Shown here in pieces: positions 4,724 to 35,640 of a stretch of DNA of 36,592 nucleotides. The position numbers were made by a program, and so were the translations under genes. Position 1 is the stretch's first letter, and each line of letters starts with the position of its first letter. The stretch spans positions 1 through 36,592 of the forward strand of contig JAFLVF010000009.1 in NCBI GenBank assembly GCA_022508425.1. Reading direction: 5' to 3'. This stretch comes from Clostridiales bacterium. GTDB taxonomy: Bacteria; Bacillota; Clostridia; Christensenellales; Pumilibacteraceae. The notes beneath the pieces are model-generated. The model ran no database searches. It was not told where the DNA came from and was given only the letters and a program-made list of their open reading frames with translations.

Positions 4724-4954
4724 TTAGTCGACGAGGCTTTGCAACTGCTTGGTCAGCTCGATGAGATTTTCGCGCTTGACCTCAATCTCCGCACTATATT
4801 GACGGAAGAACTGCATTTCGGTCTCTTGCGGCTCGTTATTGCTGATGAGAGACTCCATAAGTGCAGCCATAGAGCGCGAGCGCTTGTTCTCAAGCTCCTG
4901 CATCTCCTTCTCGATAATGTTGATTTCCTTTGCCAAATCCTTTTTCAATGACAT
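4724..4954 (-). CDS. Small coiled-coil protein (76 aa), paralogue of the 8163..8396 product
   Basis: ATG at 4954 with strong SD AAAGGAGATATAATC. The frame stays open upstream (track start GTG 5110). Confidence 0.7.
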   Translation of the reverse strand: MSLKKDLAKEINIIEKEMQELENKRSRSMAALMESLISNNEPQETEMQFFRQYSAEIEVKRENLIELTKQLQSLVD

Positions 4955-5247: not shown

Positions 5248-5276
5248 ATTTTAGCATAAATATATAATAATGTCAA
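5248..5276 (-). promoter_or_regulatory. sigma-A/70-type promoter upstream of the small coiled-coil gene
   Basis: Minus strand TTGACA (5276..5271), 17-nt spacer, TAAAAT (5253..5248). Confidence 0.75.
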
Positions 5277-5481: not shown

Positions 5482-8070
5482 CTATAGCACTGTATCGATC
5501 TTGATAGACGTCACTTGGCCGTTGTTGTCCAGCGTAAATGTGAAGCGGTACGTGCCAGTCTTGGTACAAGTCAAATCGTTGCTTAACATCGCCTTGGTTA
5601 TCGCGCCGTCGGTATTGTTGGCGGTGACTTGGAAGAACGAAGCCCAACACACCTGCTTGGAACGGGAGTGCAAAGTTGTCCTGATACCGAAATCAAGCCC
5701 CTCTGTAAGTGCAAAGTCAAACGTGATTGTACCCGCCGTTCTGTTGTATGCGGCAATTCTGTTCTCCCAAGACGCAGTGAACGAACCGTGGATGTAAATA
5801 TCGTACGCCAGCTTGATGTTCGCCGCTTCGCCGTGGCGTACAAAAGTCAGCCTCCTCGTGGATTCGTTCAGCGTAATGGTGTAGTTTCCGCTGGTAACGA
5901 CAACGATATTATTGTCGTTCTTGCCGTCAAGCTCGTTACTGCTTGTAAAGTATTTGGTGCTGCCGATATTGCCGTCGAGGTTTTGATAATTGTACTCGCC
6001 CGTCCACCCGTTGCCGGCCTTGAGTATCTTGAACTGGTTGCCCTCGTACAAATCGACCGTAATCGAGTATATGCCGTCGCCCATTTTTCTAAGGTGCACG
6101 TTGTCGGGTATCAAGCTGACGCTCGCAATGGTTTCCCATCCAAGCTCCAGCGCCGCGGCGGCGCCCACCATGTAGTACGGAGAACTGTCTACCAATTCGC
6201 CGGTGTCCGGAAGATTGCCTGTCGAGTTGCCGTCAATCCACAAATCCTTGTAGTCGATGCTTGACGTATCCGTAGTGCCGTAATTGTAATAGATTGTATA
6301 TGTTCCTGCGGCAACGATAATATTCTTTCTGTCCAAAGACAGCTGGGCCTTGACCGTAGGCTCCATTCTGAAATGGGCGATATCGACGGTCTTGCCGCCG
6401 AGCACTATCGTCATCTCCGTCGTGCCGCCCGAGCCTATTACAACGTCTTTGGCCATAACTTCAGGCTTGGCTATATTTTGAGTGATGGGTTTTATCTTGG
6501 TTGTTCCGACATAAATTCCGTCGTTATCTCGGATATCCGCCCTCTTGATTTCCTGAATGTAAACGATGTTGGAGGAATATCTGTAGAGAACGTTTATTAT
6601 CGAACCGGATATGTCCGCGCCGTTTGCAAGCCTAAGCATCTTGTCGGGAGTCAACACTACCTTGTCCGTGCTGTACTCGTCGCGCGTAATATTGACAATC
6701 AGTTCGCCGTTGTACCAGAATTCGAGCGCGACGTCCTCTCCTCTGAAGTCTATATCGTACGCCCAGATGTCTCCTGCGCTCGGGGGGTTGAACTTTCCTC
6801 TCAGTTCGCCGTCCATCCAGATTCCGTCGCCTCTTATGATAGCCGTATCGTAATGTGCGTGCAACGTTCTTGCGCCCGGAGTTCCTGTAAACACATAGTT
6901 CGTGTCCACTTTCTCGCCGCCATCTTTCTCGGTGTACCAACCGACAAACATAAATCCCGCCGGAGCGAACGGCCTGTACGGCATTCTTTCAAGCTTCTTG
7001 CCGACGGTCATCATTACCGTCGCTTCGGAGAGCGTGCCTTTGCCGGCGTCGAATGACACTATGAATTCCACCAACAGATACTGCGCGTAAATTATTTCGA
7101 TATTAGAGTAGTCGGTATCGGCATCCACTTGAACGCCGCCCGTTTTCTCGGTAAACCAGCCGACAAACTCGTACCCCACAGGGGGCGTGGGCGTAGGCAA
7201 CTCGCCCAGCTTCGCGTCGGTTGTAAACATTTCCTCGATATCGCCGGCTATAGTGCCGCCGTTGGCGTCTATCGTAACAATGTACTCTCCCTCTTCCAAA
7301 TAGAGCGCATATATAGTACAATCCGAGCTGAACACCGTGTTCGATTTGACTCGTTTGCCGCCCGTCTTTTGAGTGTACCAGGCCACAAAGGTTTTGTCCG
7401 TGGGCACCCCTGTGGGTGTAGGGAGCGCTCCCGACAATTTACCGTTAACGGTAAGGCGTGATTCCTCGTTGATTGTGCCGACGCCCGCATCAAACGTAAT
7501 CAAGTATTCCTGAATATAATGGGCGTACACTGTCACTTCTCTCGTTTCGCCGGTAAACTCGTAGCTTGTATCCACTCTCTCGCCGACCGTCTTCTCGGTG
7601 TACCAGCCGACAAACGTGCAGTTGTTAGGCGGAGTGGGATCGGCGGGCAACGCCAAAAGCCTGCCGTCCACCGTTTCCATGTTCTCCGTGCCCGCGGCAA
7701 GCGTGCCGCCGTTTCCGTCAAACGTAACGTAATACTCTGTCGATTGAGTTTCGCCCCATTTCGCGTGAATGATACAGCTGAACGAATACGTGTAGTCTAC
7801 CGTAAGCCTTTCGCCGTTAAACACCGACGAGAGATACCAGCCGAGGAACTCGGTGTTCTCCTTGTACGGCGTGGGAAGTGACGCGAGCTTTCCGTCCGTC
7901 GTCTCCGCCGACGTCGGGCTGACGGTGCCGCCGTTGGCGTTGAAAGTTATTTGATACACGCCGTCGCCTGACGAGGATGACTTGTTAGAGCATGCCGAAA
8001 GCAAGCCGCAACAAGTAGTAGCAAGCAGCACAACGACCAGAATGATTGCCGTCAACTTTCTTATCTTCAT
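5482..8070 (-). CDS. Lipoprotein with five Listeria-Bacteroides/InlB B-type repeats and C-terminal carbohydrate-binding-like beta domains
   Basis: 862 aa; signal peptide with lipobox 'LLSAC'; five units of the type 'Y.VTFDGNGGTL...LP.DPTPP....FVGWYTEKTGG..VD'; C-terminus resembles SusE/F or CBM-like sandwich domains (tentative). Confidence 0.85.
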   Translation of the reverse strand: MKIRKLTAIILVVVLLATTCCGLLSACSNKSSSSGDGVYQITFNANGGTVSPTSAETTDGKLASLPTPYKENTEFLGWYLSSVFNGERLTVDYTYSFSCIIHAKWGETQSTEYYVTFDGNGGTLAAGTENMETVDGRLLALPADPTPPNNCTFVGWYTEKTVGERVDTSYEFTGETREVTVYAHYIQEYLITFDAGVGTINEESRLTVNGKLSGALPTPTGVPTDKTFVAWYTQKTGGKRVKSNTVFSSDCTIYALYLEEGEYIVTIDANGGTIAGDIEEMFTTDAKLGELPTPTPPVGYEFVGWFTEKTGGVQVDADTDYSNIEIIYAQYLLVEFIVSFDAGKGTLSEATVMMTVGKKLERMPYRPFAPAGFMFVGWYTEKDGGEKVDTNYVFTGTPGARTLHAHYDTAIIRGDGIWMDGELRGKFNPPSAGDIWAYDIDFRGEDVALEFWYNGELIVNITRDEYSTDKVVLTPDKMLRLANGADISGSIINVLYRYSSNIVYIQEIKRADIRDNDGIYVGTTKIKPITQNIAKPEVMAKDVVIGSGGTTEMTIVLGGKTVDIAHFRMEPTVKAQLSLDRKNIIVAAGTYTIYYNYGTTDTSSIDYKDLWIDGNSTGNLPDTGELVDSSPYYMVGAAAALELGWETIASVSLIPDNVHLRKMGDGIYSITVDLYEGNQFKILKAGNGWTGEYNYQNLDGNIGSTKYFTSSNELDGKNDNNIVVVTSGNYTITLNESTRRLTFVRHGEAANIKLAYDIYIHGSFTASWENRIAAYNRTAGTITFDFALTEGLDFGIRTTLHSRSKQVCWASFFQVTANNTDGAITKAMLSNDLTCTKTGTYRFTFTLDNNGQVTSIKIDTVL

Positions 8071-8162
8071 CTTTTCCTCGCCATATATTATTCGGGTGAG
8101 CGAGCGCCAATCTTTGCATACATATCGGCGCTTGCGAAAAATGTTGTCGATACGGGATAATT

Positions 8163-8396
8163 TTATTTCTTATTCAGCCCTTCGAGCTCGGCATAGAGCC
8201 CGCGCAGCCTATCGCGCGCTTGATCGATAAGCGACGAAAACGTGGTGAAATACTGCTCGTCTTCGGGCAAAGGTTTTGTGCCCGCAAGCATTGCGCGCAT
8301 AATAGCTTTTTGCGAACGCTCGCACTTCTTCTCATATGCTTGGATTTCGAGCTCGCAGTCTTCTATAGCCTTTTTGATTTGACTTTTCTTAGACAT
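8163..8396 (-). CDS. Small coiled-coil protein (77 aa), paralogue of the 76-aa protein at 4724..4954
   Basis: SD GGAGGTAGTAGA before the ATG; ungapped alignment to the 76-aa product gives 24/76 identical positions. Confidence 0.75.
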   Translation of the reverse strand: MSKKSQIKKAIEDCELEIQAYEKKCERSQKAIMRAMLAGTKPLPEDEQYFTTFSSLIDQARDRLRGLYAELEGLNKK

Positions 8397-8419
8397 TCTA
8401 CTACCTCCTCCGACTCAGC

Positions 8420-9322
8420 CTACGCATTTACATTGTTGTCGTTTGTCGCGGCCGCTTCCGCTTGCGCCGTCTTATCCACTTCTTCTATCTTAAACGTGCG
8501 CGTGGTGCCCGACACAATGCGCTTGACAAGCCCGCGCTGCATAAACGCCATGTCGCCCTCGTAAGGAATGAAGAAGTCCTGCGCCTCGTAGTGAGAATTT
8601 TTGTAAACTTTCAACTCCTTCATCATGCCCGCAATCATCTCCTTGGCGTACTTGACTCGACGCGGGTTCTTGATGCGGTACATCGTGGGCGTATCCGCCA
8701 TGCTGGCGATATTGGAAATATCGTCAACAGAGAATTTCGTTCCGTTGTAGCCCGCAGGCTCGACGGCAAGCAACAAGCTCAACGTTTTGCCGCGCACAAT
8801 GAGCTTGGCGATGACCATGCGGCCGACGCGGTATGTTTCGCGCTTCCAGCTCATGCGGTCCTTGACCTTTTCGTACGAAAGCAATTCGTTCTTCAGCTCC
8901 GAATACCATTCCTTGGATTCGCGGCTCAACTGGGAAAGCTTGGCGGTAAGACTGCGGTTGTATCTGACGCGCTCCGTACCCTCGGTAACATATGTGGGCG
9001 TGTCGTCGTCCTCCTCGTCATCGTCCAGCTCGGGCTCGGGCTCCGGTTCGAGCTCGGGCTCGGACTCAGACTCGACCTTCACCGCGTCGGGCGGAACGTC
9101 GCCCTCCGTCGCCTCGCCTTCCGCTACGCCGGTGTCTGCCGAAACGGCCGGCTGCTGCGCGTGGTCCTGTGTATTATAGTTCTGCGTAGGCGCCATTACT
9201 ACCTTGACGACGGGCGCGCGCTTGCGCAAAGCGATTATGAACACAATGCCAAGCACCGCCAAAAGTACGACAAAAACGATCAGAACGACCATTAATATCA
9301 AAAGCATGGTTTTGTTATCCAT
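8420..9322 (-). CDS. Membrane-anchored protein: N-terminal TM, acidic Glu/Pro/Asp linker, cytosolic uncharacterised domain
   Basis: ATG 9322 (MDNKTMLLILMVVLIVFVVLLAVLGIVFIIALRKR) with SD AGGAGGTATAAGGAAA; linker 'ESESEPELEPEPEPELDDDEEDDD'. The track start at 9346 is probably too early. Confidence 0.8.
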   Translation of the reverse strand: MDNKTMLLILMVVLIVFVVLLAVLGIVFIIALRKRAPVVKVVMAPTQNYNTQDHAQQPAVSADTGVAEGEATEGDVPPDAVKVESESEPELEPEPEPELDDDEEDDDTPTYVTEGTERVRYNRSLTAKLSQLSRESKEWYSELKNELLSYEKVKDRMSWKRETYRVGRMVIAKLIVRGKTLSLLLAVEPAGYNGTKFSVDDISNIASMADTPTMYRIKNPRRVKYAKEMIAGMMKELKVYKNSHYEAQDFFIPYEGDMAFMQRGLVKRIVSGTTRTFKIEEVDKTAQAEAAATNDNNVNA

Positions 9323-12300
9323 TTTCCTTATACCTCCTAATAGCAAAGATGATTACGACGACTGCGAACGCGCAGGCGACTACTCCTAAAATAATATCTA
9401 TCAGCATGAACGTGTTGTCAAACGCCGGCGCTATAGTAAACTCGTAACGCGCCTCCAGCGTTTCGTAACCGTCAAGCTCTACCCGTGCAATCATGATATA
9501 GCGACCGGCGGCCGTGGGTCTGTCGGTTAGGAAGATGTCCGGCCTGTCTTTGTTAATATAGATGTACGTAATTTCGCCGTACGTGGCGTCGCCTATGGGA
9601 TTGGGGCTGTTGCCGCTGAATTCCTCAGACCAGCTCTCGATGCTCGGCGACGAATCCCCGACCCAAGAGTTTTTGGAAAGCGCGACCTCGAACATCATTT
9701 CGCTTGTAATCGTCTGCGTATACCGCGCGCTTGCATAAGCCACGACAATATACTTGCCTGCGACGGTGGGAATCTGCGAGCCCAAATCTCTGCGCGTCAA
9801 TGCGTCGAGATATCTGTATGTAATCTTGACGGTGTCGTCGCCTGTCAGGTTTGTTCTCGCCGTAGGTCCGGCCCACTTCGCTCTCTCGCCGAGATACAGG
9901 ACGGACGAAATGCGCACGCTCTGATCCCATGCGATGACGCGGTCGCGTATGGTGAACATGATTCGGCTTGAATGATTGACGCCGAGATAATCGTTGCTGT
10001 TAGATTCGTTTTCCGCATAGGACAGCATGAAGTACGTGCCGGGTGCGGTGGGAATATAGAATATCCGCGCATATTTTCTGCTGTTGTCGACAGTGAACGA
10101 ATCTTCGCCTTTTTCAACTTTCTCTTTTAGCTGATACTCGTCGTTCTCGTACACGGCCTTGTAGAACTCGAAGTACGGCAATCCGCGGAAAGGCAACCCT
10201 GTGGGCATGACGACCGTTTCATCGATGTTGGCCGTCCAGCCTTCTATGCTGGGCACCGTTACCCAGAAGTTTTGATCGCTGTTGACGAACACTTGGAACT
10301 CTATAATTTCCTCTAATCCGCCGTACTGATCGGGTATGCCGTTGACCGTAACCGTCATTTTGTACCAACCGACTTTGGCGTCGGCGAGTCTGTCGTAGGT
10401 CTCTTCCACGCCGGTGTATCGGTAGAACATTTCGCCCGTATCCTTATGCCTGATCACAATATTAGGCTTACCGTAGAGGGCTGTTGCCGTCGGCGCATTC
10501 ACGTCGTCGTTGTAGCTGCCGAAATACCAAGCGGTAATCTTAGGCGTTTCCACCCAAGCGTTTTTAGCCTCGGTGACAATGAACGATGTTTCGTACTCAA
10601 ACGCATCGTAGTTGTCTCTTGCAGCTACGTACAAACGCAACGTGTACGTGCCTTGCGTCAGCTTGTTGAGCTCGGCGGCGATCTCCGGCTCTACGTATTT
10701 GTCCTGTGCAAAGCTGCCGGTGTGAATACCTTTGCCTCCTACGTCGTTAAAGAGCTGGAATTTTCGGAACAGCGCCGCCCCGCCTTCATGACCTTCTCTA
10801 ACCTCGAATCTGACTTCGCCGAGCGATACGGGCGTGCCCGTAAACAGGTTGTTTTTCTCGTCGTAGTTGTTCCACGCCCAATCGGTGACGCCGGGCGACG
10901 CGGAGAACTCCCTGTTGGTCACAGGAGAAATAGTAAAGAATACGGTCTTGGTCAAAGCCTTGTAATTGTCGGTACCGACGACTGAGAACACCGCCTTGTA
11001 ATCGCCGACGGTGGAGGGCATTGCCGTCCAATTCTCGCTGCCGTTTTCGGTGCTGTAGGTTACCGTAGCGTTACCGAAATAGGGCGCGTAATTGACGACG
11101 ATGTTAGAGCCGTACACCCAACCGTTTGATACGTCTTGCGTACCCATGAAGAACGCGGGGGCGGTCGTCCACCTGTTGGTCGCTTGCTCGACTTTGAAGT
11201 TAACCGTCTTGGCAGTGTCGCCGCTGAGCGATTTGTAATTGGTCTGTTCGTTGACGGTGGCCGTTATTGTATACTCGCCCACTCCCAGCCTGCATAGCTC
11301 GCTTATAAGCGCGGCTCTGTCATTTGTATTGATATTCTTCCCGTCGGTGCCCGTTACGAAAGCGACTATGACGGTAAACTCGGGAGTAATCCCGCCTTTT
11401 TTGTACACAGCAATAGATACGGAATCGCCTTGCTTGGCAATGGGTAAAATCAAGTGAGTGTCTATATCTCTTGCGAACTCGCTCCATATCCAATTTGATA
11501 TAATCAAGTCTACACCGTCGCCGGATTCGTTCTCCAGCCATTCGTTGTTTGCTTTTTCGATTACGAGACTTACCCAGCTCTCAAGACCGCTGTACTTATA
11601 GTCGGCGTCGACGGTAGCATAGATAAAATACGTTCCGGCGCTCAAGCCCTTGATATAATTGCCGAGGTTGGAGTACGAAACGATCTCGTACTGTGATACA
11701 GCGCCGCCTATTCCTACCAATCCGACTCTGACGACCATCTTGTCGCCGTTGTATTCGGCCCCGAACTTGATGACGGGAGCAGTCTCGCTGCCGTAAGTCC
11801 AAGAAATCGGCACGGCGCTGTCGCGGTCTGCTCCGCCCGAGTTTTCGTTTTGCTTCCAGCTGTTCGCCTTTACGCTTATTATTATAGTAAGAGTGTATGT
11901 AAGCGCTGCGTGATTGTCGTCGCCGTCGATTTCCGCAGTCACGACGTACGTATCTGCTTCACACTTTTTGAGCTCGGCCAACAACGCCGACCAAGAACCG
12001 CCCGAATACAGCGAACCGGACGCATTACTGGCTCTGAGCGTGTAGACGGCAGTCTTACCCCAAGAAGCGGAACCCAATTTCGGCTCCGGCAGGTCGCCGC
12101 TGTAATCGTAGTCGTACGGCTTGTTGATTGTGGTTTTGTCGGTACTATCGGTCGTGTTGTCCCATTTGGGCGCTATCTTGTCGACTTGAATCGTGCGAGT
12201 AATGTTCTGAGGTGCGCTGTAATTAACTGTTTTGGCAATAGCAAAAGTTATTGTATATTCACCTGCGCCCCATTTCGCCATATCCTCTATCAAGGCGGCG

Positions 12301-15300
12301 TATACGCGCTCTGCAAGCGACCTTGTATCCGTCTCGAGTTGAGACATTCCCTCAGGATCTTTATAATCCTCCGCGCGGAACGTTCTGAATACGCTACCGC
12401 CCTTTGTAATTGTGTAAACTATAGTATCGTCGCCGAAATTGGCCTTAGGTCTCTTCAGCTTTTCCGCGTCAAACGAGCCGTAAGTCCATGAGGTGCTGGC
12501 AAACAACGTGCTTTCGTCCCATAGGGTGACGGAAGGATCTATGTTGACATATATATAATCGATTACGGTTGCATAGTTCTCACACGTCACGGTATATTCC
12601 ACAATATACTCTTTTTCGCTGGCGTCTCTTGAACGAAGGTCTTTTAACATTTCTTCGAAATCGGTGTACACCTTAGACCACGTGGAGTCGAAGCCTATGC
12701 GGTAAGTAATAACCGCGCCATCCTGCGCAACCTCTATTTCGTTGAATATTTTCTTATCGTTATTTCCCCATTCCCATTTAATTCTGTTGCCGCTACCGCT
12801 ACCGTCGCCGGGTTTAACGGTAATATCGGGTTTGGCAAGCTTGACGTTGGCGCTTACGTTCTTTTCAATCGACGTAGCGCCCGTTGTGTCAACCGCAACA
12901 GCAACCACAATACTGTATCTGGCCACTTCAAGCGCCTTAAGAGCCGCGAAAAGCTCGCTGAAGTCGCCCTCTGCTTTTCCCGCTTTAACAGTCACGTCCA
13001 CCGTTATTGTGTGGAGAACGGCGGTGCCGAGTTTGACGGTGTAAATCAATCTGAAGCTGTTGATATCCTGATTGTTTTCGGTAGCGACAAGCACGTCGGT
13101 AATGTTGGAAAAATCGGGATCGGTGTTAGTCAGCTCCCATTCTATATCATCCGGTTCCCTCACCCATTTGATTTTCTGCGGATCGATATTAAAGTAAACG
13201 GGCGTAACAAGATCGTCGTAGTTTTCGTTGCCCTTTAACGTTACGACCATTGCATAGTATCCGGCAAGCGCGGACGAAATATCTGCTACATGACTGCCGT
13301 AATCCACGCTCGAAATGCCACTTTCAAGCTTCGCGCCGTAGTATGCGTACGTAATTTCGTTGCCCGTATCGACGGTGGCTTCGGGCGTATTGTGGGAAGA
13401 CGGAGTGTTGCCGAAAGTCCAATCGGGAATAGTGGGGGCTGTCTTCCAACTGTTTTGCGCCTTCTTTACGGTAAAGCGCAAATCCTGCGAAACCGCAGCG
13501 TAATCATCCGTCGCTATAACCTCCGCTCGCAGGTTGTAGCTACCGGCATTCAGTCCCATAAGCAACGAACCGTCATCGCCGCAAAGCTTACTTGTAAGAT
13601 CTTTCTTTGTCAAATTGATAAAACCGGGGACTTTGCCCGATGCCGAAACACCGCCGTCGCTGTCTACCGTGTAAACGGTGTACACAAACGTACCGTATCT
13701 GGCGGTGCCTTCGGTCAACAAAGTGTCCGGAAGGCTGTCATTATACGTCCATTCGGTTTGCATTGTAGCGCCTGTTTGCAAGCTGTTACCTGCCTGCGTA
13801 ATGTTAAGCAAAATGTTGACGCTCAAGCCGCTGTAGTTAGTGGTGCCGGTAAGACTTACCGTCAAAGTATAAGCGCCCGCATGCAGTTCGTTAAGCGTGT
13901 CTACCGTTGTTGCGGTAAGCTTGCCGTATTCGTCGATCTCCAAAGTCCACGTCGAATTTTCGACAGCCATCGACGTGTCGGAGGTCTTTATACCCTTTGT
14001 CAATACATAGGTTATCTTTTTGTCTTTGTCCTCGTTGAACACTGCGCCTGCGGCACGGAAATTATTGTTGTCGGTCTGGAAATTGTTGTACTGCCAACCG
14101 ACGAGAACGGGCGCCGGATTCCAGTTATTCTCCGCAATTGTCACATTGAATACCATTGACAGCCTAAGGTCGGCATAATCGTTCGTACCCTCCAGCTCCG
14201 CGACAAGCGTGTATGTGCCGACGGGGAGAGCTGTGAATTTGTCCGCATACGTGGTTTTCCCATCCTCGCCGGTGAGCGCCGTTATATCTGTAAAGTGGTC
14301 GTCCCACAGCTGTTCGGTAGTGCCGGTGCCTTTGTATAAGATATATTCCACTTTCTTCCCTTCGGTATTGCGCTCCGCTTTACCATTTTGGAAGTTTGTT
14401 TTTACGTCAAAGCCTTTGTACGCCCAGCCCGTCATGAACGGTGTTTGCGTCCAACCGTTGTCAACCTGCGCGACGCTGAAATATATCGACAACGACAGCG
14501 CGGAATAGTCGGCAGTACCCGTCACCTCCGCAACGAGCTTGTATTGAGCGGCGCCCAATGCTTTGAGCTTACTTCTGACGATGGACACGTCTGTGATGGG
14601 ATCATCACCCCACTGCTTGGTCGAGGTATTTTGTCCGTTCTTATTTTCTTCCTTAAACAAGGTGTACTGTATAACCGCACCTTTTTTGGGGAACGTTGCC
14701 CCGCCCGCGGTGAAGAGTCTTTCGTCGTAGCTGCCGAACGTCCAACCGATAACAGACGGCGTCGGATTCCAGGTGTTTTGTGCCTGAGTTACGTTAAACG
14801 TCATGTCCAACGACAGCTCGGCGTAATCGGTAGTTCCCGCGTAAGACGCGACGAGCCTATATTGACCGGCGCCCAAACCGCCGAGCGTGCTATTAACGGT
14901 TACGTCGTCGACAGGTCCCCACTGCTTGGTCGATGTGCTTTGTCCGTCTTTTTCTTCTTCTTTAAACAGAGTGTACTGTACCTTTACGCCGTCGGTGGTA
15001 AATGCTGCCTTGCCCGCGGTAAAGAGTTTTTCGTCGTAGCCGCCGAACGTCCAACCGATAACAGACGGCGTAGTATCCCAGGTGTTGTTCGCCTGCGAAA
15101 CGCGGAACGTCATGGAAAGCGTCATATCGGCATAGTCAACATTACCCTTCAAAAACGCGACCAGCGTGTACGTGCCGTAAGGAAGAGCCTTGAATTTGTC
15201 CGCATACGTGGTTTTTTCATCCTTGCCGGTGAGTGCCGTTATATCGGTAAAGTGAAACTCTTCCGTAGATGAGGATGTAATTTTATCGCCTTGGTACAGA

Positions 15301-18300
15301 GTGTATATAACAGCGTTGCCGGTAGCGTTAGCGGCAATGCCCGCGCGGAAGTTGGTACCCGCAACGAAGCTCGTGTACGCCCAGCCCGTCATAAACGGTG
15401 TGGTATCCCAAGTGTTGTTCGCCTGCGAAACGCGGAACGTCATTGACGCAGACAGCGCGAAATAATTGGTGCCCTCGTCTATATGCGCGTAAATCGTGTA
15501 AGTATCGGGATGCAAATCTTTTTTAAAATACGTAACATCGTCGTCGGACATTTCGTATTTGACTTCATTATTCGCTTCGACCTTCGTAACGGTAAGAGGG
15601 CGCTTTACAATACCGGAGGCAGAGGTGTCGGTGCCGACGTACAGCTTGTACGTAGCGCCTTCGGTGTTGAAGTTTGCTATACCGCCCTTGAATATGTCCT
15701 TGCTGAAAGTGCCGAACGTCCAACCGACTATGGACGGCGTAGTGGTCCACGTATTTTCCGCCTTTGCCACGCTGAATATCATGGAAAGCGACAAATCGCC
15801 GTAATCGGCGGTGCCCTTGTACGACGCGACAAGCGTATACGTGCCGGCATCCAAAGCCTTAAAATACGCCGCGTCATCGTCGGACATATCGTATTTGTCG
15901 CCGTCGGCTTTCTTCGTTACGGTAAGAGTGCGCTTTACAATACCGGAGGCAGAGGTGTCGGTGCCGCTGTACAGCTTGTATTCCACCTTTTCGTCCGGCG
16001 TGTTAAAGTAATTGGGCACGCCCGCTTGGAAGTTTCCGCCCTCGCCGCTTAAAAAGCCCTGATAAGTCCAACCCAACATGCGCGGCGTAGTCTTCCAACC
16101 GTTTTCTGTCTGCGACACATTGAAGAATATATTTTGCGACAGCGCCGCATAGTCAGTCGTGCCCGCCACCGCTGCGACGAGCTTGTATTGTCCGGCGCCC
16201 AATGCCTCGAATTTACCTTGGACGGTTTCGTCTATCGAGGTAAACGGATCTTTCCACAGCTCGATCCAATCATCGTCTTCGCCGCCGTCTGCGGATACGC
16301 CGTCGACAGCTTCGTCATCTTTTTCTTTGTAAAGCTTGTATGTAACAACCTGTCCGTTGTCGGGGAACCTCGCCACGCCCCCTTGGAAGTTGCTCGTGCT
16401 AAAGCTTCCGTATGTCCAGCCTATCATATACGGCGCTTTCGTCCAGCTGTTTGCGGCCTGCGCCACGCTGAAGAATATATTTAGCGACATATCGGCGTAG
16501 TTGGTCGTGCCCTTGTACGACGCTACGACCGTGTATTGCCCGACGCGTAAAGCTTTGAAATCGTCTTCTTTCGTCGACACGTCGGTAAACTCGAATTTCT
16601 TCTTCGTCGTATCCGAAGTATCGGTGCCCGAATACAGCGCGTATTTCACCGTTACGGATTCGCCATCTTCGTCCTTTGTATCAAAGTAAGTGGGTTCGCC
16701 CGCGTGAAAGTTGCTTAAATTGAAGCCTTGATACGCCCAGCCGATTACGTACGGAACATTTTTCCAACTGTTGGTGGTTTGGTTTACGGTAACTTCTATG
16801 TAGCTGCCGGCATAGAATTCGTTTACGTTATTCTCAAACGGATTGTCTTCTTCTTGCGCGGCGTCGTCTTGCTCGGCCCCTCCTTGCTCGCCCTTATCGA
16901 ATTTTCTCTGATTCTTAATGGCCGGAACGTAGCTGTCAAGATAGTATGTGCCGGCGTCAAGCTGATTGAGCGCTTTGGCAACCTTTTCGCTTACTTGGTT
17001 TTTGTCGTCTACGTTAAAATAAGTGCCCTTGTCGTCAAACGTACATACGACAGCGCCCTCCTCGCCATCCTCTATTTTCAGCCATTCGTATTGGTCGGCG
17101 CCTTCGACGCCGCTCTTTTTGCGACCTAAGCGGAACTGCACTTTATCCTGGCTGTCGAGGAACTTGAGATCACCCGTTATAATATTGTCTTCTTGGCTAA
17201 AGCCGTCGTAGTACCAGGACGGTAATTTAGGCGCAACCGTCCACTCGTTGTTCGCAGGGGTGATGGTGTAATAAACGAGCAAATCATCACCTTCGATCTT
17301 AAAGTAGTCTTTGTAATATTTTTCAAACCAATCCCCACCTTCGTTGGAGTGAGGGAGCTTGCTCGTATCCCAAAATGTGTCCGTCTTGTTTCGCAAAATG
17401 AGCCTTATATAAGCCACGCCGACGTTCTTGTAATCCATACCATCTTCTTTGTCGGGCGAGGCGTCATAATAAGAGCTTACATAGGCCGTAGACAGAACAT
17501 CATTTCCGGTATATGTGCCGCCGTGGTAATATATGCCGCCCTCTTGCTTCATCAAGTCGTAAATTTCTTTTACGTCAGCGCCGTCGAACATCCATATATT
17601 AAAGCCGTAATGTTCGAAATCTTTGGAATTGGCGCCGCCCACATAAGCGTAGTTTTTAGCGTAAATGCTGTAATAAACGTCGTAAGTTTTGGGTGTTGCG
17701 AACGAACCGGCAATTTCTTTCTCGCTGAAATCGGCACCGCCGGCGTAGCCGTCGCCGCGGCTGTACATTATCGTAACCTCGGTGTCATATAACTCGGCAT
17801 TCTCCTTGTCGGATATTGTCTTCCAGTATCCTATGCGAGACCCCTTTGTGGTATATTTGAGAGTGCCGTTAAGCTTGGCAAGCGGACTGACTCCGCCGTC
17901 ACCTGCGACCGTAATGTCGTCGTGCAATGTTTCTGCGCCCAACGGGCGGGAGTTGCGGTAGTCCCCTTGCCCTTTGTTAACCTCTTGACCGCGTATCACG
18001 TCGTGCAAATCGGAAAGAGCTTCGCTGTCAAACGCCTTGGGCAAAACGTAAAGTTTATATTCGCCGGTCACCGAATGGTTTCCACTGTCGTAACTCATGT
18101 AAACATACAGCGTGTACGTACCAGCGGGCATACTCTTGTTTATATAGTAAGCGATGGTTTTTTCCGGACTATCTTTGGCCGCGCCATTATCGCTATGCGT
18201 CCACTTATTATCATTTTGCTTATCTTGCACCCAAGTTACCACGTGAAGGAGCTCGCCCTTCTCTTTTATGGTCGTTTTTGCGCCGTCGGGCGACAGATAG

Positions 18301-19640
18301 TCTATTTTAAACTGCATTTCTACGTTTGTTACGCCGTCGACCTTGATTCTGGGCTCGTTGATATAAATATCGTCACCGTACGTTATGGTATCGAGTATGG
18401 CAAACGCGTCTCCGCCCGGTTTTGCAAAGTCTTCGAGAGTATAACCGTTTTTACCGTCAAAGTTAGGTGAGCCTTCATCAGTTGAGCTACTGATAAAAGT
18501 TTCATCATCGGGCCTATATGCAAACGGAACGTACGGTTCGTTGCCGTTTTTGTATCCCGGCAAAGCGATCATCTTGTCGCCTTTGACTATGTACCAGTAT
18601 TTTTTAAGCACAAAAGAAGTTGTCGTTCTGGTTTCTTCGGGCACGCTCAAACCCCTATAGCTTTCGCTCAGGGCGGATTCGTTGGTATAGTCAAATATAT
18701 AATTTTCGCTTTTCGAAATGTTATAGTTGTCATCCGCAAAGTTAAACTGGAATGAAGCAACATATTCGCCCGAGTCGCCAAAAACGGTACCGGACCTATT
18801 TGTAATTCTGATTTTAATCTCCTTGCCGTCTGTAACGTACAAATAGTTCGAGTAAGAGGTCGAAGATGCTGTGTCAGGATAACGAGTTGGTTTTAATGAA
18901 TCGGTACCGAAGAGCGAGCTTTTGGGGTTTTCGGTGGTGAGATCCTCGCCCATTATCATTATCGGTATATTCTTGCCTGAAGAATAAGAATAATAGGAGT
19001 TTGTGATAGTTCTGGTATTGACGACAGAGTTGTTATCTATCTGCGCCGCATACCAACCGTTGTTGTGCTGATAGATTGTGGTAATATCGCCGTGCGCGGC
19101 GTAGCCGGTGATTGCTTGAGAATACGTAGGGCCTCGGTTGGTAGGCGTTGTGGCATTTGTAAATGCGTTAATGTCGTTGACGTTGACATGAACAACCTGG
19201 GAGTCAAGAACGACAATATCGTTGTAAGGCTGCGCGTCCGCCGCCAAAGGCTCTACTTCAAACTCGTATTTGCCGGCGTTCCTTATGCTTGTCGTTTTGT
19301 CCGTGCCGTCCTTTCCGCTCGGATATGTAAACTTAGTCAGAGTAACAATGTATTCGTCGGGATCGAGTCCCAGAACGGTGTGGTAATCTATGAACTCGTC
19401 TTCTTTCTCGCCGAGAGTGTATTGCTTGCCGCCGATAGTGTACGTCTGACCGAAGGTGAAATGCTTTTGCCCGTCCGACGTGTGATCGCCTATGACCGAG
19501 GACGGGGCGCCGTCGTTGACCGTGCTCTTTTGGTTCTTTGCAAAACATAAAAATGCGCCTATGCCAATGCACAACGCCAACACGCATATGATAATTATCG
19601 AGACAATAAATCTCTTTCCCCTCAATTCGGTTTTGCCCAT
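9315..19640 (-). CDS. Giant bitopic surface protein with ~24 divergent Ig-like/MBG-like repeats
   Basis: Open frame 9315..19715; likely ATG 19640 (MGKTELRGKRFIVSIIIICVLALCIGIGAFLCF) with SD GGGGGAGTGATGTG. Repeated motif 'NxWxxxPxxxGWxYGxF...AGTYTLVAsvkGTxdYadLsLsmxFxVxqA'. C-terminal TM 'MLIDIILGVVACAFAVVVIIFAIRRYKENG'. Confidence 0.9.
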   Translation of the reverse strand: MGKTELRGKRFIVSIIIICVLALCIGIGAFLCFAKNQKSTVNDGAPSSVIGDHTSDGQKHFTFGQTYTIGGKQYTLGEKEDEFIDYHTVLGLDPDEYIVTLTKFTYPSGKDGTDKTTSIRNAGKYEFEVEPLAADAQPYNDIVVLDSQVVHVNVNDINAFTNATTPTNRGPTYSQAITGYAAHGDITTIYQHNNGWYAAQIDNNSVVNTRTITNSYYSYSSGKNIPIMIMGEDLTTENPKSSLFGTDSLKPTRYPDTASSTSYSNYLYVTDGKEIKIRITNRSGTVFGDSGEYVASFQFNFADDNYNISKSENYIFDYTNESALSESYRGLSVPEETRTTTSFVLKKYWYIVKGDKMIALPGYKNGNEPYVPFAYRPDDETFISSSTDEGSPNFDGKNGYTLEDFAKPGGDAFAILDTITYGDDIYINEPRIKVDGVTNVEMQFKIDYLSPDGAKTTIKEKGELLHVVTWVQDKQNDNKWTHSDNGAAKDSPEKTIAYYINKSMPAGTYTLYVYMSYDSGNHSVTGEYKLYVLPKAFDSEALSDLHDVIRGQEVNKGQGDYRNSRPLGAETLHDDITVAGDGGVSPLAKLNGTLKYTTKGSRIGYWKTISDKENAELYDTEVTIMYSRGDGYAGGADFSEKEIAGSFATPKTYDVYYSIYAKNYAYVGGANSKDFEHYGFNIWMFDGADVKEIYDLMKQEGGIYYHGGTYTGNDVLSTAYVSSYYDASPDKEDGMDYKNVGVAYIRLILRNKTDTFWDTSKLPHSNEGGDWFEKYYKDYFKIEGDDLLVYYTITPANNEWTVAPKLPSWYYDGFSQEDNIITGDLKFLDSQDKVQFRLGRKKSGVEGADQYEWLKIEDGEEGAVVCTFDDKGTYFNVDDKNQVSEKVAKALNQLDAGTYYLDSYVPAIKNQRKFDKGEQGGAEQDDAAQEEDNPFENNVNEFYAGSYIEVTVNQTTNSWKNVPYVIGWAYQGFNLSNFHAGEPTYFDTKDEDGESVTVKYALYSGTDTSDTTKKKFEFTDVSTKEDDFKALRVGQYTVVASYKGTTNYADMSLNIFFSVAQAANSWTKAPYMIGWTYGSFSTSNFQGGVARFPDNGQVVTYKLYKEKDDEAVDGVSADGGEDDDWIELWKDPFTSIDETVQGKFEALGAGQYKLVAAVAGTTDYAALSQNIFFNVSQTENGWKTTPRMLGWTYQGFLSGEGGNFQAGVPNYFNTPDEKVEYKLYSGTDTSASGIVKRTLTVTKKADGDKYDMSDDDAAYFKALDAGTYTLVASYKGTADYGDLSLSMIFSVAKAENTWTTTPSIVGWTFGTFSKDIFKGGIANFNTEGATYKLYVGTDTSASGIVKRPLTVTKVEANNEVKYEMSDDDVTYFKKDLHPDTYTIYAHIDEGTNYFALSASMTFRVSQANNTWDTTPFMTGWAYTSFVAGTNFRAGIAANATGNAVIYTLYQGDKITSSSTEEFHFTDITALTGKDEKTTYADKFKALPYGTYTLVAFLKGNVDYADMTLSMTFRVSQANNTWDTTPSVIGWTFGGYDEKLFTAGKAAFTTDGVKVQYTLFKEEEKDGQSTSTKQWGPVDDVTVNSTLGGLGAGQYRLVASYAGTTDYAELSLDMTFNVTQAQNTWNPTPSVIGWTFGSYDERLFTAGGATFPKKGAVIQYTLFKEENKNGQNTSTKQWGDDPITDVSIVRSKLKALGAAQYKLVAEVTGTADYSALSLSIYFSVAQVDNGWTQTPFMTGWAYKGFDVKTNFQNGKAERNTEGKKVEYILYKGTGTTEQLWDDHFTDITALTGEDGKTTYADKFTALPVGTYTLVAELEGTNDYADLRLSMVFNVTIAENNWNPAPVLVGWQYNNFQTDNNNFRAAGAVFNEDKDKKITYVLTKGIKTSDTSMAVENSTWTLEIDEYGKLTATTVDTLNELHAGAYTLTVSLTGTTNYSGLSVNILLNITQAGNSLQTGATMQTEWTYNDSLPDTLLTEGTARYGTFVYTVYTVDSDGGVSASGKVPGFINLTKKDLTSKLCGDDGSLLMGLNAGSYNLRAEVIATDDYAAVSQDLRFTVKKAQNSWKTAPTIPDWTFGNTPSSHNTPEATVDTGNEITYAYYGAKLESGISSVDYGSHVADISSALAGYYAMVVTLKGNENYDDLVTPVYFNIDPQKIKWVREPDDIEWELTNTDPDFSNITDVLVATENNQDINSFRLIYTVKLGTAVLHTITVDVTVKAGKAEGDFSELFAALKALEVARYSIVVAVAVDTTGATSIEKNVSANVKLAKPDITVKPGDGSGSGNRIKWEWGNNDKKIFNEIEVAQDGAVITYRIGFDSTWSKVYTDFEEMLKDLRSRDASEKEYIVEYTVTCENYATVIDYIYVNIDPSVTLWDESTLFASTSWTYGSFDAEKLKRPKANFGDDTIVYTITKGGSVFRTFRAEDYKDPEGMSQLETDTRSLAERVYAALIEDMAKWGAGEYTITFAIAKTVNYSAPQNITRTIQVDKIAPKWDNTTDSTDKTTINKPYDYDYSGDLPEPKLGSASWGKTAVYTLRASNASGSLYSGGSWSALLAELKKCEADTYVVTAEIDGDDNHAALTYTLTIIISVKANSWKQNENSGGADRDSAVPISWTYGSETAPVIKFGAEYNGDKMVVRVGLVGIGGAVSQYEIVSYSNLGNYIKGLSAGTYFIYATVDADYKYSGLESWVSLVIEKANNEWLENESGDGVDLIISNWIWSEFARDIDTHLILPIAKQGDSVSIAVYKKGGITPEFTVIVAFVTGTDGKNINTNDRAALISELCRLGVGEYTITATVNEQTNYKSLSGDTAKTVNFKVEQATNRWTTAPAFFMGTQDVSNGWVYGSNIVVNYAPYFGNATVTYSTENGSENWTAMPSTVGDYKAVFSVVGTDNYKALTKTVFFTISPVTNREFSASPGVTDWAWNNYDEKNNLFTGTPVSLGEVRFEVREGHEGGAALFRKFQLFNDVGGKGIHTGSFAQDKYVEPEIAAELNKLTQGTYTLRLYVAARDNYDAFEYETSFIVTEAKNAWVETPKITAWYFGSYNDDVNAPTATALYGKPNIVIRHKDTGEMFYRYTGVEETYDRLADAKVGWYKMTVTVNGIPDQYGGLEEIIEFQVFVNSDQNFWVTVPSIEGWTANIDETVVMPTGLPFRGLPYFEFYKAVYENDEYQLKEKVEKGEDSFTVDNSRKYARIFYIPTAPGTYFMLSYAENESNSNDYLGVNHSSRIMFTIRDRVIAWDQSVRISSVLYLGERAKWAGPTARTNLTGDDTVKITYRYLDALTRRDLGSQIPTVAGKYIVVAYASARYTQTITSEMMFEVALSKNSWVGDSSPSIESWSEEFSGNSPNPIGDATYGEITYIYINKDRPDIFLTDRPTAAGRYIMIARVELDGYETLEARYEFTIAPAFDNTFMLIDIILGVVACAFAVVVIIFAIRRYKENG
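14733..15966 (-). repeat. Near-identical DNA repeats inside the giant gene
   Basis: Exact 30-nt match 14733-14762 = 15042-15071 (309 apart); 41-nt match with one mismatch 15073-15113 / 15403-15443 (330 apart); exact 37-nt match 15600-15636 = 15930-15966 (330 apart). Confidence 0.9.
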
Positions 19641-19759
19641 CACATCACTCCCCCAATATAAGTCAGTATCCCTTCCCGCTATATAGCAATAGCGAAGCAA
19701 AACTGCCTCGCCCAAAACATCTTTGTGTTGAATTTTCGTAAACAGCCGTTATTAGTTAT

Positions 19760-19787
19760 ATTATATCAAATCTATCGCGATTGTCAA
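19760..19787 (-). promoter_or_regulatory. Consensus sigma-A/70 promoter for the giant surface-protein operon
   Basis: Minus strand TTGACA (19787..19782), 16-nt spacer, TATAAT (19765..19760); predicted 5' UTR about 110 nt. Confidence 0.82.
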
Positions 19788-19985: not shown

Positions 19986-21470
19986 TCAGATGTTCGGCAA
20001 ACCTTTGTACATCGCAATATATTCTTTTGCGCTCGCGTTCCACGAAAAATCGGTGCGCATTGCTCTGTCGACAAGAGCGCGCCACTTCTCCGGAAAACCG
20101 TTGTACAGACCGAGCGCGCGATCCACCGCATTGAGAAGATCGGCGACGGAGTAATGCGCAAATTTATACCCGTTGCCGAAGTCGCCGTTGTACGCGTCCA
20201 CTATGCTGTCGTGGAGCCCGCCCGTCTCGCGCACAATGGGAATAGTTCCGTAACGACACGCCATCATTTGGCTTAGGCCGCACGGCTCGGTACGGCTCGG
20301 CATGAGAAACATGTCAGCGCCCGAATATATCTTGTGCGACATGTCGGTGTTAAACGCAATTACGGCGCGAAGTTTGTTGCCGTAAATATCTTGCAGATAT
20401 CTGAAGTAGTTTTCGTAATCGCTCTCGCCCGTGCCGAGCATGATAAACTGAATATCCCGGGCAAGCAGATCGTTCATAGCGGCTTTGACTATATCCAAGC
20501 CCTTGTGCGAGGCGAGCCGCGTAATCATCGCGACAATGGGAACATTCGCCCTGACCGGCAATCCCAGCATGGATTGAAGCTCGGCCTTGCACTTCGCCTT
20601 GCCCGATTTGTCTTTGACCGAATAATGCGCGAATAGCGACGGGTTTGTTTCGGGATTGTACTGCTCGGTGTTGACGCCGTTGAGTATGCCTTTCAGCTTG
20701 TGCTCGTTGCGTTTTAGGTCGTAGTCGAGCGTGTGGCCGTACTCTTGAGTGAGAATCTCCTTGGCATAAGTCGGACTGACCGTCGTCACCATATCGGCAT
20801 AATCGATTGCGCCCTTCATAAGGTTTATCTCGCCGAAGTGCTCGATACTACCGAATTCATGCTCGGGAATGCCGAACACGTCGCCGATAATCTGCCGAGG
20901 ATACCAGCCTTGATATTCGATATTGTGAATCGTATACACAGTCTTTATGCCCTTGTAGTTGTCCGAATACATATAGAACAGCTTGTAGTATATGGGCACA
21001 AGCGCGGTCTGCCAGTCGTTGCAATGCAAAACGTCGGGCATAAAGTCGAGGCGCGGCAGAATGTCTATAACCGCTTTGGAAAAGAAAGCGAATCTCTCGC
21101 CGTCGTCGCCGAAACCGTACAGCTTGTCGCGCTTGAAATAATACTCATTGTCTATAAAGTAATATACCGTGTTACCCTCTTGAATCTTGAACAACCCGCA
21201 ATACTGCCGCCGCCACGAAAGCTCGACAAAAGTCCAGCACACGAATTGCAAGTCCGCTCTACGCTTTTCGGGAAAACTGCCGTACAGCGGAAGTATGACT
21301 CTCGCCTCGTACTCGCCGCTGTCGTTTATCGCCTTGGGTAGACTGCCCATGACCTCGCCCAATCCTCCCGTGCCGGCAAAAGGGAACGCCTCCGACGCGA
21401 CAAACAGTATTTTCTTCTTGGGCGCGGCTTTTACTTCCGCTTTTTTAACCGCCTGCTTCTTTGTTGCCAT
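19986..21470 (-). CDS. glgA: Glycogen synthase
   Basis: 'KKILFVASEAFPFAGTGGLGEVMGSLPKAI', 'NDWQTALVPIYYK', 'PSRTEPCGLSQMMACRYGTIPIVRETGGLHDSI'; ATG 21470 preceded by AGGAGG; the track start 21554 is upstream of the SD. Confidence 0.95.
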   Translation of the reverse strand: MATKKQAVKKAEVKAAPKKKILFVASEAFPFAGTGGLGEVMGSLPKAINDSGEYEARVILPLYGSFPEKRRADLQFVCWTFVELSWRRQYCGLFKIQEGNTVYYFIDNEYYFKRDKLYGFGDDGERFAFFSKAVIDILPRLDFMPDVLHCNDWQTALVPIYYKLFYMYSDNYKGIKTVYTIHNIEYQGWYPRQIIGDVFGIPEHEFGSIEHFGEINLMKGAIDYADMVTTVSPTYAKEILTQEYGHTLDYDLKRNEHKLKGILNGVNTEQYNPETNPSLFAHYSVKDKSGKAKCKAELQSMLGLPVRANVPIVAMITRLASHKGLDIVKAAMNDLLARDIQFIMLGTGESDYENYFRYLQDIYGNKLRAVIAFNTDMSHKIYSGADMFLMPSRTEPCGLSQMMACRYGTIPIVRETGGLHDSIVDAYNGDFGNGYKFAHYSVADLLNAVDRALGLYNGFPEKWRALVDRAMRTDFSWNASAKEYIAMYKGLPNI

Positions 21471-21643
21471 AATAATAACGAAACCTCCTAAAAAGGCGCT
21501 TGAAAATGTAGGAAAGAGTTGCGCTGACGGCGTAGTCGCGCCGCAGACGGACAACAGGCGACGAGGCGCGACGGGAGTTTAGTTAAACCTAAATGACCGA
21601 GCGCCGAGAAGCACGTAATCCGTATCCGGCGATGAATACGACG

Positions 21644-22753
21644 TCAGATTACCGCGTGCTTAGATATAAAGTACGGATGCGTCTCATGCCCAGACAATGT
21701 TCTTCCGTCGAGCACGGTAACGAGCTTGTCCGCCACCACGCAGTTGAGACTGCTGTTCTCGCCGATAACGGCGTCTTGGAAAATAATCGAATTTGTTATC
21801 TTCGCGCCCTTTGCTATCTTTACGCCGCGGAACAGTATGGAATTGCTGACCTCGCCTTGGATATCGCAGCCGTCGGCAATGAGCGAATTGTGTATGACGG
21901 CGGCGCTCCCCACGCGGGCGGGCGCGCTGTCGCGCACCTTTGTATAGATATTGGCGCCGTCGCGATAGAACAGCTCGTCGCGGATATCTTTGTTGAGCAG
22001 TTCGAGCGAGTGCTTGTAATAGTTGCTCAAACTGTCGATATTTGCAAAATATCCGTCCTGCATGTATGCGTAAATATTGTATTGATTGCAACCTTTTGCA
22101 AGTATGTCATTGGTAAAGCTGGCATAGCCCAACTCTGTCGAGGTATCGAGCATGTTGAGCAGGAATTTACGGTTCGTGACGAATATGTTGGCAAACACGA
22201 TATTCTCGCCGCTCGCCTTGCTCGTATTGATCACGCCGACAACCTTGCCGTCGCCGTTGACGTCGACTATCGTGCGCGGTTTTTTGTTGGTCAGATTCTT
22301 CTTGCGCGTGACGAGCGTAATGTCGGCGTGATTGTCAATATGCGACGCGATTACGTTGGAAAGATTGATGTTGCACACGTTGTCGCAATCGCTGAACACC
22401 ACATAGTCCTCGTCGCAATGCCGAATAAACGGCTCTATGTTCTTGATCGCGCCGAGGCGGTGGCTGTACAAATCCTTGTCGCCGCCGCCGTAAGGCGGAA
22501 GAATTATCAGTCCGCCGTTTTTGCGCGACAAATCCCAATGCTTGCCGCTTCCGACATGGTCCATGAGCGACTGATAGTTGTTCTTTGTAATTACGCCGAC
22601 CTTGGATATTCCGCTGTTGACCATGTTGGACAGCACGAAATCTATAAGCCTAAACCTGCCGCCAAACGGCACGGAGGCCAAAGAACGCACCGCGGTAAGC
22701 TCGCCGATATCCTTGTCGTGAAGATTTCCGAAAATGATTCCGAGTGTTTTCAT
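21644..22753 (-). CDS. glgD: Glucose-1-phosphate adenylyltransferase regulatory-type subunit GlgD
   Basis: 369 aa; 'LGIIFGNLHDKDIGELTAVRSLASVPFGGRFRLIDFVLSNMVNSGI' is typical of GlgD; start overlaps the glgC stop (TAATG). Confidence 0.94.
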   Translation of the reverse strand: MKTLGIIFGNLHDKDIGELTAVRSLASVPFGGRFRLIDFVLSNMVNSGISKVGVITKNNYQSLMDHVGSGKHWDLSRKNGGLIILPPYGGGDKDLYSHRLGAIKNIEPFIRHCDEDYVVFSDCDNVCNINLSNVIASHIDNHADITLVTRKKNLTNKKPRTIVDVNGDGKVVGVINTSKASGENIVFANIFVTNRKFLLNMLDTSTELGYASFTNDILAKGCNQYNIYAYMQDGYFANIDSLSNYYKHSLELLNKDIRDELFYRDGANIYTKVRDSAPARVGSAAVIHNSLIADGCDIQGEVSNSILFRGVKIAKGAKITNSIIFQDAVIGENSSLNCVVADKLVTVLDGRTLSGHETHPYFISKHAVI

Positions 22754-23943
22754 TACGCTTGTACTCCTATATCCACAATCTCGCCCGACCCTACATTAGT
22801 GCCGCGTTTAAGAACAGTCCCTCTTCCGACGAGCGCGATACGGTGCTTGTCCGAATTGTTGTCTCCGATCGTAACCTTGTCCTCTATCACGACGTTTTCG
22901 TCTATCATGCCGTAATTGATTCTGACCTTCTTGCCGATGACCGCGCCCTGCATAACTATGCTGTTCTCTATGACCGCGCCCTCGCCGACGGTAACGCCCT
23001 CGCCGATGACGGAGTTGATGACCGTGCCGTTTATCTCGCAACCCGTCGTCATAATGGAATTGACGAACTTGCCGGTCTTGCCTATATACGACGGCGGGAG
23101 CGGCTGGTTGCGCGAATAAATCTTAAACGACGGATCGTCGAGATCGAAAACGGGTTTGTCGCCGAGCAAGTCCATATTCGCTTCCCAAAGACTGGTGACC
23201 GTGCCGACGTCCTTCCAATATCCGTCGAACTGATAGGCAAACATTCTGCACTTGGCCTTGAGCATCTTGGGAATGATATTCTTGCCGAAGTCGTTGACGG
23301 AGGACTTGTCAGCCTCGTCGGCAATCAGCTCGCGCACCAAGACGTCCTTTTTGAATATGTATATACCCATGCTGGCATGGTTGCTCTTGGGAGTCTTGGG
23401 CTTTTCCTCAAACGACGTTATGCTCTTGTCCGGCGCATAGTCCATGATGCCGAAACGGCTCGCCTCTTCCGCAGGCACGTCGATTACCGCAATGGTGCAA
23501 TCGGCGTTGTGCGCGACGTGCTCGCCCAACATCCTGCTGTAATCCATTTTGTAAATGTGGTCGCCCGACAGAATAAGCACGTGCTCGGAATCGAACTCGT
23601 TGAGGAAATGCAGATTTTGGTAAATGGCGTTGGCCGTGCCCTTGTACCACTCTCCGCCCGTCTTGGCCTGGTACGGCGGAAGGGTATGCACGCCGCCGTA
23701 GCTACGGTCCAAGTCCCACGGCTCGCCGTTGCCGACGTACTCGTTGAGAATGAGCGGTTGGTACTGCGTAAGCACGCCCACCGTGTCTATGCCCGAGTTG
23801 GTACAGTTACTAAGCGGAAAATCTATTATGCGGTACTTGGCGCCGAACGACACCGCAGGCTTTGCCACGCTGTTGGTAAGCGCAAACAACCTTGTACCCT
23901 GCCCGCCCGCAAGCAACATTGCCACACATTTTTTCTTTTTCAT
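22753..23943 (-). CDS. glgC: Glucose-1-phosphate adenylyltransferase
   Basis: 396 aa; '[54 protein letters not shown]'. Confidence 0.96.
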
Positions 23944-25732: not shown

Positions 25733-25733
25733 T

Positions 25734-26690
25734 CTATTTTCCTACCTTTATTATATTTTGTCTTAAACCCATGGCCGCAATGGCGCCGTAGTTGGTTGTC
25801 GTGTAACTTCCGCACTTGCAAGCAAACTCAAGCACGTCGCGATAGTCAAAGTTATAAATATTGTCCGCCGTTACGCCGAGGCGCATCAGCTCGGCTATCA
25901 GCCCGCCGAAGAACGAATCGCCCGCCCCCGTCGTGTCGACCGCCTTGACCTTGAATCCGGCGCAATCATACGTCTTGCCGTCGCTCAAGTACAGTTTGGC
26001 GCCGTGGGCGCCGCGCGTCATGGCAAGCATCTTCGCTCCCATGCCCAAAAGAGTCTCGGCGCCGCTGTCGGCATTGCTTTGTCCGGTAATGAACGCCAGC
26101 TCGTCGTCGCCCGCCTTGATTACGTCCGCTTTGCCCGCATAGTCGAGCACAACTTGCCTTAGTTCGTCTCGATCATTCCACAGGTTAAACCGCAGATTGG
26201 GATCGAAACATACGAGCGCGCCGCCGCGCTTTGCCTTGTCGATTACGTAATCGTGCGCGGCTCGGGACTCGGCGGTACTCAACGCGACGCTGCCGAATTC
26301 CAGCATGTCGCCGCGGTCGAAAACCACTTCCGAGAACTGCTCGGGCGTAAAGTAAAGATCGGCCGCCGTCTTGCGGTAAAAAGCGAATTGCCGCTCACCG
26401 CCCGCGCCGAAACTTACGAACGCAAGCGACGTGTCGTAGCGGTCGTTCTTGCGGACAAACCGAGTGTCAACGCCCTCGCCGTTAAGCGTGTCTATAAGGA
26501 ACTCGCCGAATGCGTCGTTGCCTACTTGTGAAAGGTACATGCAGTCGCAGTCCAGTCGTTTTGCCTGTACGCAAACGTTGGCAGGAGCGCCGCCCGCTTT
26601 TTTTACAAACTCGTCGGTGTCTTTGAGCGCACCGCTGCCCTTGGACTGAAAGTCTATAAGCAGCTCGCCCATACACACAAGCTTACTCAT
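25734..26690 (-). CDS. PfkB-family carbohydrate kinase, fructokinase-like
   Basis: 318 aa; 'GELLIDF', '[36 protein letters not shown]', '[18 protein letters not shown]'; next to GH32 genes. Confidence 0.9.
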
Positions 26691-29579: not shown

Positions 29580-29597
29580 TGCAATCCTTTAATCAGA

Positions 29598-31625: not shown

Positions 31626-31650
31626 GATATTTATCTCCTATGGATTTATT

Positions 31651-33979: not shown

Positions 33980-33988
33980 TACGCTATA

Positions 33989-35611: not shown

Positions 35612-35640
35612 CTTTTATTCCTCCGAAATAATTTTTTATT

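Follow-up and report, generated by a model that had tools for sequence, protein, structure and literature searches.

The window analysed here (36,592 nucleotides of Clostridiales bacterium contig JAFLVF010000009.1) encodes a giant surface protein (P1), followed directly by a membrane partner (P2) and a small predicted coiled-coil protein (P3), and comparison with related genomes indicates that P1-P2-P3 is a genuine conserved unit. We read it as a transmembrane fibre unit with a constant adaptor, coupled to a signalling relay and with the lipoprotein P4 as an optional member, and give this reading a probability of about one half. Uncultured gut bacteria often carry giant repeat surface proteins, and events at the inner end of these proteins are usually obscure. 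Here, a conserved, order-restricted and very probably cytosolic module is tied to the giants by gene order, by fusion and by a shared DNA block. It is also tied to a phosphorelay by context, which makes it testable whether the fibre signals and whether it does so via P3.

Gene order and the shared cassette

The first-pass annotation of the window had described a promoter, a terminator and four consecutive minus-strand genes for a bitopic surface protein of ~3440 aa, a protein with one TM, an acidic linker and a presumably cytosolic domain, a 77-aa coiled-coil protein and a five-repeat InlB-type lipoprotein. All of these were present where it had placed them, P1 to P4 being co-directional and bracketed by the promoter and the terminator (Table 1). 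The promoter call is independently supported because its block (ATATTGACAA...TTTG[AC]TATAAYA) is kept 5' of the orthologous giants in two other loci (L006 and L008; upstream alignment). The hairpin in the leader matched no Rfam family. The 56 nt surrounding the terminator fold with -23 kcal/mol (z = -3.6), and 0 of 200 shuffles were as good. As P3 and P4 are separated by a gap of 92 nt, P4 is only a candidate member of the P1-P2-P3 transcript. A hairpin between P3 and P4 was considered as an attenuator and dropped, its sequence not being conserved and its folding being no better than that of shuffles. Beyond the terminator lies a second P3 paralogue (window 4727-4954, minus strand), which has its own promoter and is 32% identical to P3. 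It is preceded by a TM-plus-linker ORF that extends upstream to about 5160 and looks broken, since its apparent ATG is out of frame.

Table 1. Features of the P1-P4 locus and its flank (window coordinates)
Feature	Position	Strand	Evidence or remark
Sigma-70 extended -10 promoter, TTGACA-16-TATAAT	19787..19760	-	scores 12/12, TG before -10
Leader, about 113 nt, with GCGAGGCA/TGCTTCGC hairpin	19641..19759	-	weak fold, z -1.35
P1, giant bitopic surface protein, 3441 aa	9315..19640	-	N-terminal signal anchor and C-terminal TM
Ig-like tandem repeats (WTYG type, about 100-115 aa)	10290..17249	-	21 of 22 HMM hits
P1 C-terminal TM region	9336..9443	-	most conserved part of P1
P2, 300-aa single-TM protein	8420..9322	-	ATG 9322 overlaps P1 stop by 8 nt
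P2 acidic linker	8969..9205	-	net charge -22
P2 domain, basic, DUF5655-related, YjbR/DUF1801-like predicted fold, probably cytosolic	8513..8968	-	profile, model, charge, topology
P3, 77-aa predicted coiled-coil protein	8163..8396	-	ORF; family of 85 copies, 24 genomes
P4, 862-aa lipoprotein, lipobox LLSAC, five InlB B-repeats	5482..8070	-	ORF and Pfam
Intrinsic terminator, stem-loop	5413..5381	-	folding of surrounding 56 nt
Second promoter	5276..5248	-	11/12; beyond terminator, 5' of second P3 paralogue

We then counted how often this order recurs among non-redundant loci with a single-domain P2 in the genus and family, using the window genome and its relatives. Of 19 loci that could be tested, 17 have a giant with a C-terminal TM directly 5' of P2 (overlap or gap of ≤2 nt). 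P3 comes after P2 in 16 of 20 loci, and P4 follows in 5 of 20; these counts are drawn from related genomes and are hence not independent events. The giant is absent at two P2 loci (L079 and L080), and P3 at four. Homologous giants consistently lacking their neighbours, which the first-pass annotation had named as grounds for abandoning its proposal, were thus not what we found for P2 and P3. A second full giant-P2-P3-P4 set is present in the window's own genome (contig C122; P2 71% identical), and the same order was found again in other species. Three MAGs of the window's genus (HAN099, HAN100 and HAN101) also carry the set, that of HAN100 being cut off upstream of P2.

The extent of the unit is marked by one relative, genome G015, in which two P1-P2-P3 loci (L088 and L089) are 93.7% identical over 1439 bp. 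This block takes in P2 and P3, with the final 255 nt of the giant on one side and a few tens of bases past P3 on the other; outside it, the two giants share only short pieces of about 73-74% identity. Such a pattern would be expected from gene conversion or from cassette swapping, and the shared block marks the P1 TM, P2 and P3, without P4, as a unit. Above this cassette the ectodomains differ between genomes. The P2-P3 pair lies under a giant with beta-helix-looking repeats in G006 and G010 (judged by eye), and the giants beside P2 at loci L024 and L074 carry MBG arrays (Pfam MBG_2, PF18676), a family with no Pfam match in P1.

The giant protein, its membrane partner and the lipoprotein

The giant ORF was originally listed as 9315-19715, encoding 3466 aa from a TTG. 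The most likely start is the ATG at 19640, which lies behind GGGGAG. The C-terminal TM of the product ends in RRYKENG, and no LPXTG-type motif was found ahead of this TM when the last ~85 residues of P1 were read in translation; sortase anchoring is therefore unlikely. No Pfam or NCBIfam family matched P1, P2 or P3. A profile built from a single P1 repeat gave 22 hits, 21 of them within residues 823-3142. The predicted structure of a repeat (pLDDT 95.2) is a beta-sandwich. Foldseek found no counterpart for it at E ≤ 0.001, and its VIA-align matches are mostly Ig domains, with a best Z of 7.3. By repeat hits and predicted structure, P1 thus has the tandem Ig-like beta-sandwiches of the giant-adhesin type. 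The number of repeats differs among orthologues; the alignment with the 2459-aa giant of L006 consists mostly of gaps over residues 1000-1800. The last ~65 residues, by contrast, are 85-91% identical in the orthologue alignment, compared with about 50% elsewhere.

Giant Ig-like adhesins include BAP of Acinetobacter (PMC4647330) and a 7651-aa protein of Mobiluncus mulieris (PMC10619420). P1 resembles them in its very large size and in its Ig-like domains, about 100 aa each and in tandem, and differs in its plain C-terminal TM and short basic tail, with no LPXTG seen. We know of no coupling to P2 or P3 in any of these adhesins. Giant adhesins with a dedicated membrane partner are otherwise represented by LapA with the c-di-GMP-gated LapD, which links a giant adhesin to c-di-GMP, and by SiiE with SiiA/SiiB. 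The P1-P2 pairing is alike in this respect. However, P2 has no periplasmic or channel domain and no GGDEF/EAL domain (no Pfam match in P2; GGDEF occurs in a different gene, at other loci), and type I secretion as known from Gram-negatives is not involved.

The start codon of P2 is preceded by AGGAGG. The C-terminal 150 residues of P2 form a domain that is also seen in tandem, alone behind a TM, or fused to giants; in relatives it follows the last TM of single giants of 5335, 2546, 1330 and 1362 aa. The domain is basic, with a mean net charge of +10 over 70 copies. Of 53 proteins in which a TM precedes the domain, 52 have more basic residues after this TM than before it, and by this positive-inside pattern the domain is very probably cytosolic, as the first-pass annotation had presumed. 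Among 14 sampled members of the order, 5 had the domain, against 0 of 277 genomes from elsewhere in the class; it appears to be restricted to one bacterial order.

Profile comparison indicates that the P2 domain, itself uncharacterised, is a distant relative of DUF5655 (PF18899). When two DUF5655 members were used, hhalign aligned the profiles over 106 columns (probability 92.7, E 4e-7), compared with 0.05-4.3% for 20 column-shuffled control profiles; adding a third, divergent member dropped the probability to 58%. The Pfam model itself did not match P2 at E ≤ 1, nor did it match any of 30 domain sequences, so that no P2 sequence reached the Pfam gathering score; P2 also differs from DUF5655 in being membrane-tethered and basic. 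Within the literature collection searched, no paper named DUF5655, and a sequence search returned no PDB entry similar to the domain. Its predicted structure (pLDDT 87.5) suggests, without proving, a double-wing-like fold of the YjbR/DUF1801/MotA type. The top nine VIA-align matches are the YjbR/DUF1801 group and MotA (Z 5.4-7.8, below the trust level of Z 8). The model aligns with MmcQ/YjbR, DUF1801 and the MotA C-terminal 'double-wing' over 92-109 residues at Z 6.5-7.8, but at only 4-13% identity. The hhalign match to DUF1801 was weak (6.5%), and Foldseek returned nothing at E ≤ 0.001 (E ≥ 0.1).

Several proteins carry the domain in other settings. The window's genome encodes a third, divergent P2-type protein (TM, charged linker and P2 domain; 9243-10226 of locus L096, genome G000, contig C118), which adjoins smpB and has no giant beside it. 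A 2767-aa protein of genome G043 (L065, 9395-17698) has two N-terminal TMs, some 2300 residues and then the P2 domain, and would have either a giant cytosolic region or an unusual topology. At loci L010-L025, InlB-like or other Ig-like modules (identified by eye) lie between the TM and the P2 domain and would be cytosolic by the positive-inside rule.

P4 matched PF09479 in five stretches (E 3e-49, 165 bits against a cut-off of 27). Full-length orthologues were found in only 5 of about 20 loci, which makes P4, on this distribution, a clade-limited accessory; at the remaining loci, similarity to other lipoproteins is limited to the C-terminal part of P4.

P3 and phosphorelay genes in relatives

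The 85 distinct P3 copies within the fetched loci, from 24 genomes, occur in several contexts. P3 directly follows a P2-domain protein in 21 copies and other bitopic surface proteins in 24-27. The latter proteins end in a coiled-coil, charged tail, and the idea that these tails are divergent P2 domains was ruled out on comparison. A further 19 copies lie directly after an HPt gene, in clusters of hybrid-kinase, RR-HD-GGDEF and HPt genes whose protein domains were confirmed, and some copies stand alone. Contig C77 of the window's own genome has in one run P3, a 2025-aa bitopic protein, P3, a hybrid kinase, an RR-HD-GGDEF protein and an HPt protein.

P2 leads to the same type of relay in another group, made up mostly of rabbit-gut MAGs. 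RR-HD-GGDEF and HPt genes lie downstream of the P2 protein in all nine loci with downstream sequence, immediately so in eight, and pilB/pilT genes then follow in seven. Tandem P2 proteins without an adjoining giant also occur. These counts, too, come from related genomes and are not independent, but two parts of the unit, P2 and P3, each adjoin the same relay type elsewhere. The first-pass annotation contained neither this linkage nor the conserved domain within P2.

Proposed assembly and alternative explanations

We propose that P1, once exported, stays attached through its C-terminal TM, and that its Ig-like array forms a long extracellular fibre. P2, which lacks an ectodomain, would pair its TM with the conserved TM of P1 and hang its DUF5655-like domain into the cytosol on the acidic tether, and P3 could dock there on the P2 domain. 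The P2/P3 end would be a constant adaptor under differing ectodomains and may couple surface proteins to the hybrid kinase/HPt/RR-HD-GGDEF relay within the order and, in some lineages, also to type IV pili. Engagement of the fibre might be reported inward, or the behaviour of the fibre might be set from inside, with P4 as an optional lipoprotein partner. An outside-to-inside assembly of this kind had been suggested in the first-pass annotation. Its fibre, membrane linker and cytosolic adaptor are well supported at the level of sequence because of the coupled gene order, the giants that carry the P2 domain on their cytosolic tail and the positive-inside pattern, whereas the lipoprotein fits less well, given its sparse distribution. 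A signalling role of the unit is suggested by gene context, and we put its odds at about even. The window locus has no kinase alongside; its relay context comes from relatives of P2 and P3 elsewhere, from which we infer any relay link of its own. More tentatively, the locus may represent an undescribed outside-in (or inside-out) signalling apparatus of one order of uncultured Clostridia, in which giant fibres with interchangeable ectodomains and a common, constant cassette of P1 TM, P2 and P3 would act with a hybrid-kinase/HPt/RR-HD-GGDEF phosphorelay that controls c-di-GMP and type IV pili.

Alternatively, P2 and P3 could be a purely structural anchor that holds the inner end of the fibre through oligomerisation, positioning or a cytosolic scaffold, without signalling. 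Coupling, TM conservation and a constant cassette demand structure alone, and P3 is a short predicted coiled coil without a catalytic motif. Such an anchor is possible, but it would not be expected to have P3 directly after HPt genes or P2 proteins directly before RR-HD-GGDEF genes. It is unlikely that the two proteins are instead biogenesis factors that help very long surface proteins to be exported, folded or retained in the membrane: P2 lies near the last-made, cytosolic end and away from the signal sequence, and some tandem P2 proteins have no giant beside them, although the translational coupling of giant and P2 and the unrelated ectodomains of the partners (MBG arrays, WTYG Ig-like repeats and an apparent beta-helix type) would agree with such a role.

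The adaptor model has its own counter-evidence in the two P2 loci without a giant, the four without P3, the solitary P3 copies and the small protein beside smpB, which carries the P2 domain in the same genome. A nucleic-acid-binding regulator tethered at the membrane, with DNA or RNA contacted by the double-wing-like domain, would be in line with the best structural neighbours of the P2 domain, with its basic charge and with the DNA binding predicted for YjbR (PMC7641849). We consider this improbable, as Z values under 8 may reflect merely a widespread arrangement, a slight acidity was seen in the two DUF5655 relatives examined, and fold similarity shows no function. It is very hard to credit a Sus-like glycan-capture complex centred on P4. 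Fructan and glycogen genes do lie upstream in the window, and P4 weakly matches an X25 pullulanase-type domain (E 0.08, short of the cut-off), but the unit contains no transporter and persists without P4, whose orthologues are confined to 5 loci.

Elsewhere in the window, a partial tRNA lies at the contig end (1-54, minus strand). Glycogen genes (19986-23943) adjoin a fructan-type sugar operon (24152-36567, minus strand) with two GH32 genes, a PfkB kinase, an ABC permease and a MalK-type ABC ATPase. The ATPase (24152-25732, minus strand) carries a divergent InlB B-repeat (PF18998, E 4.6e-11) before its MalK OB/TOBE part, that is, a surface-type module in a cytosolic protein, suggesting that this lineage may employ InlB-like modules inside the cell.
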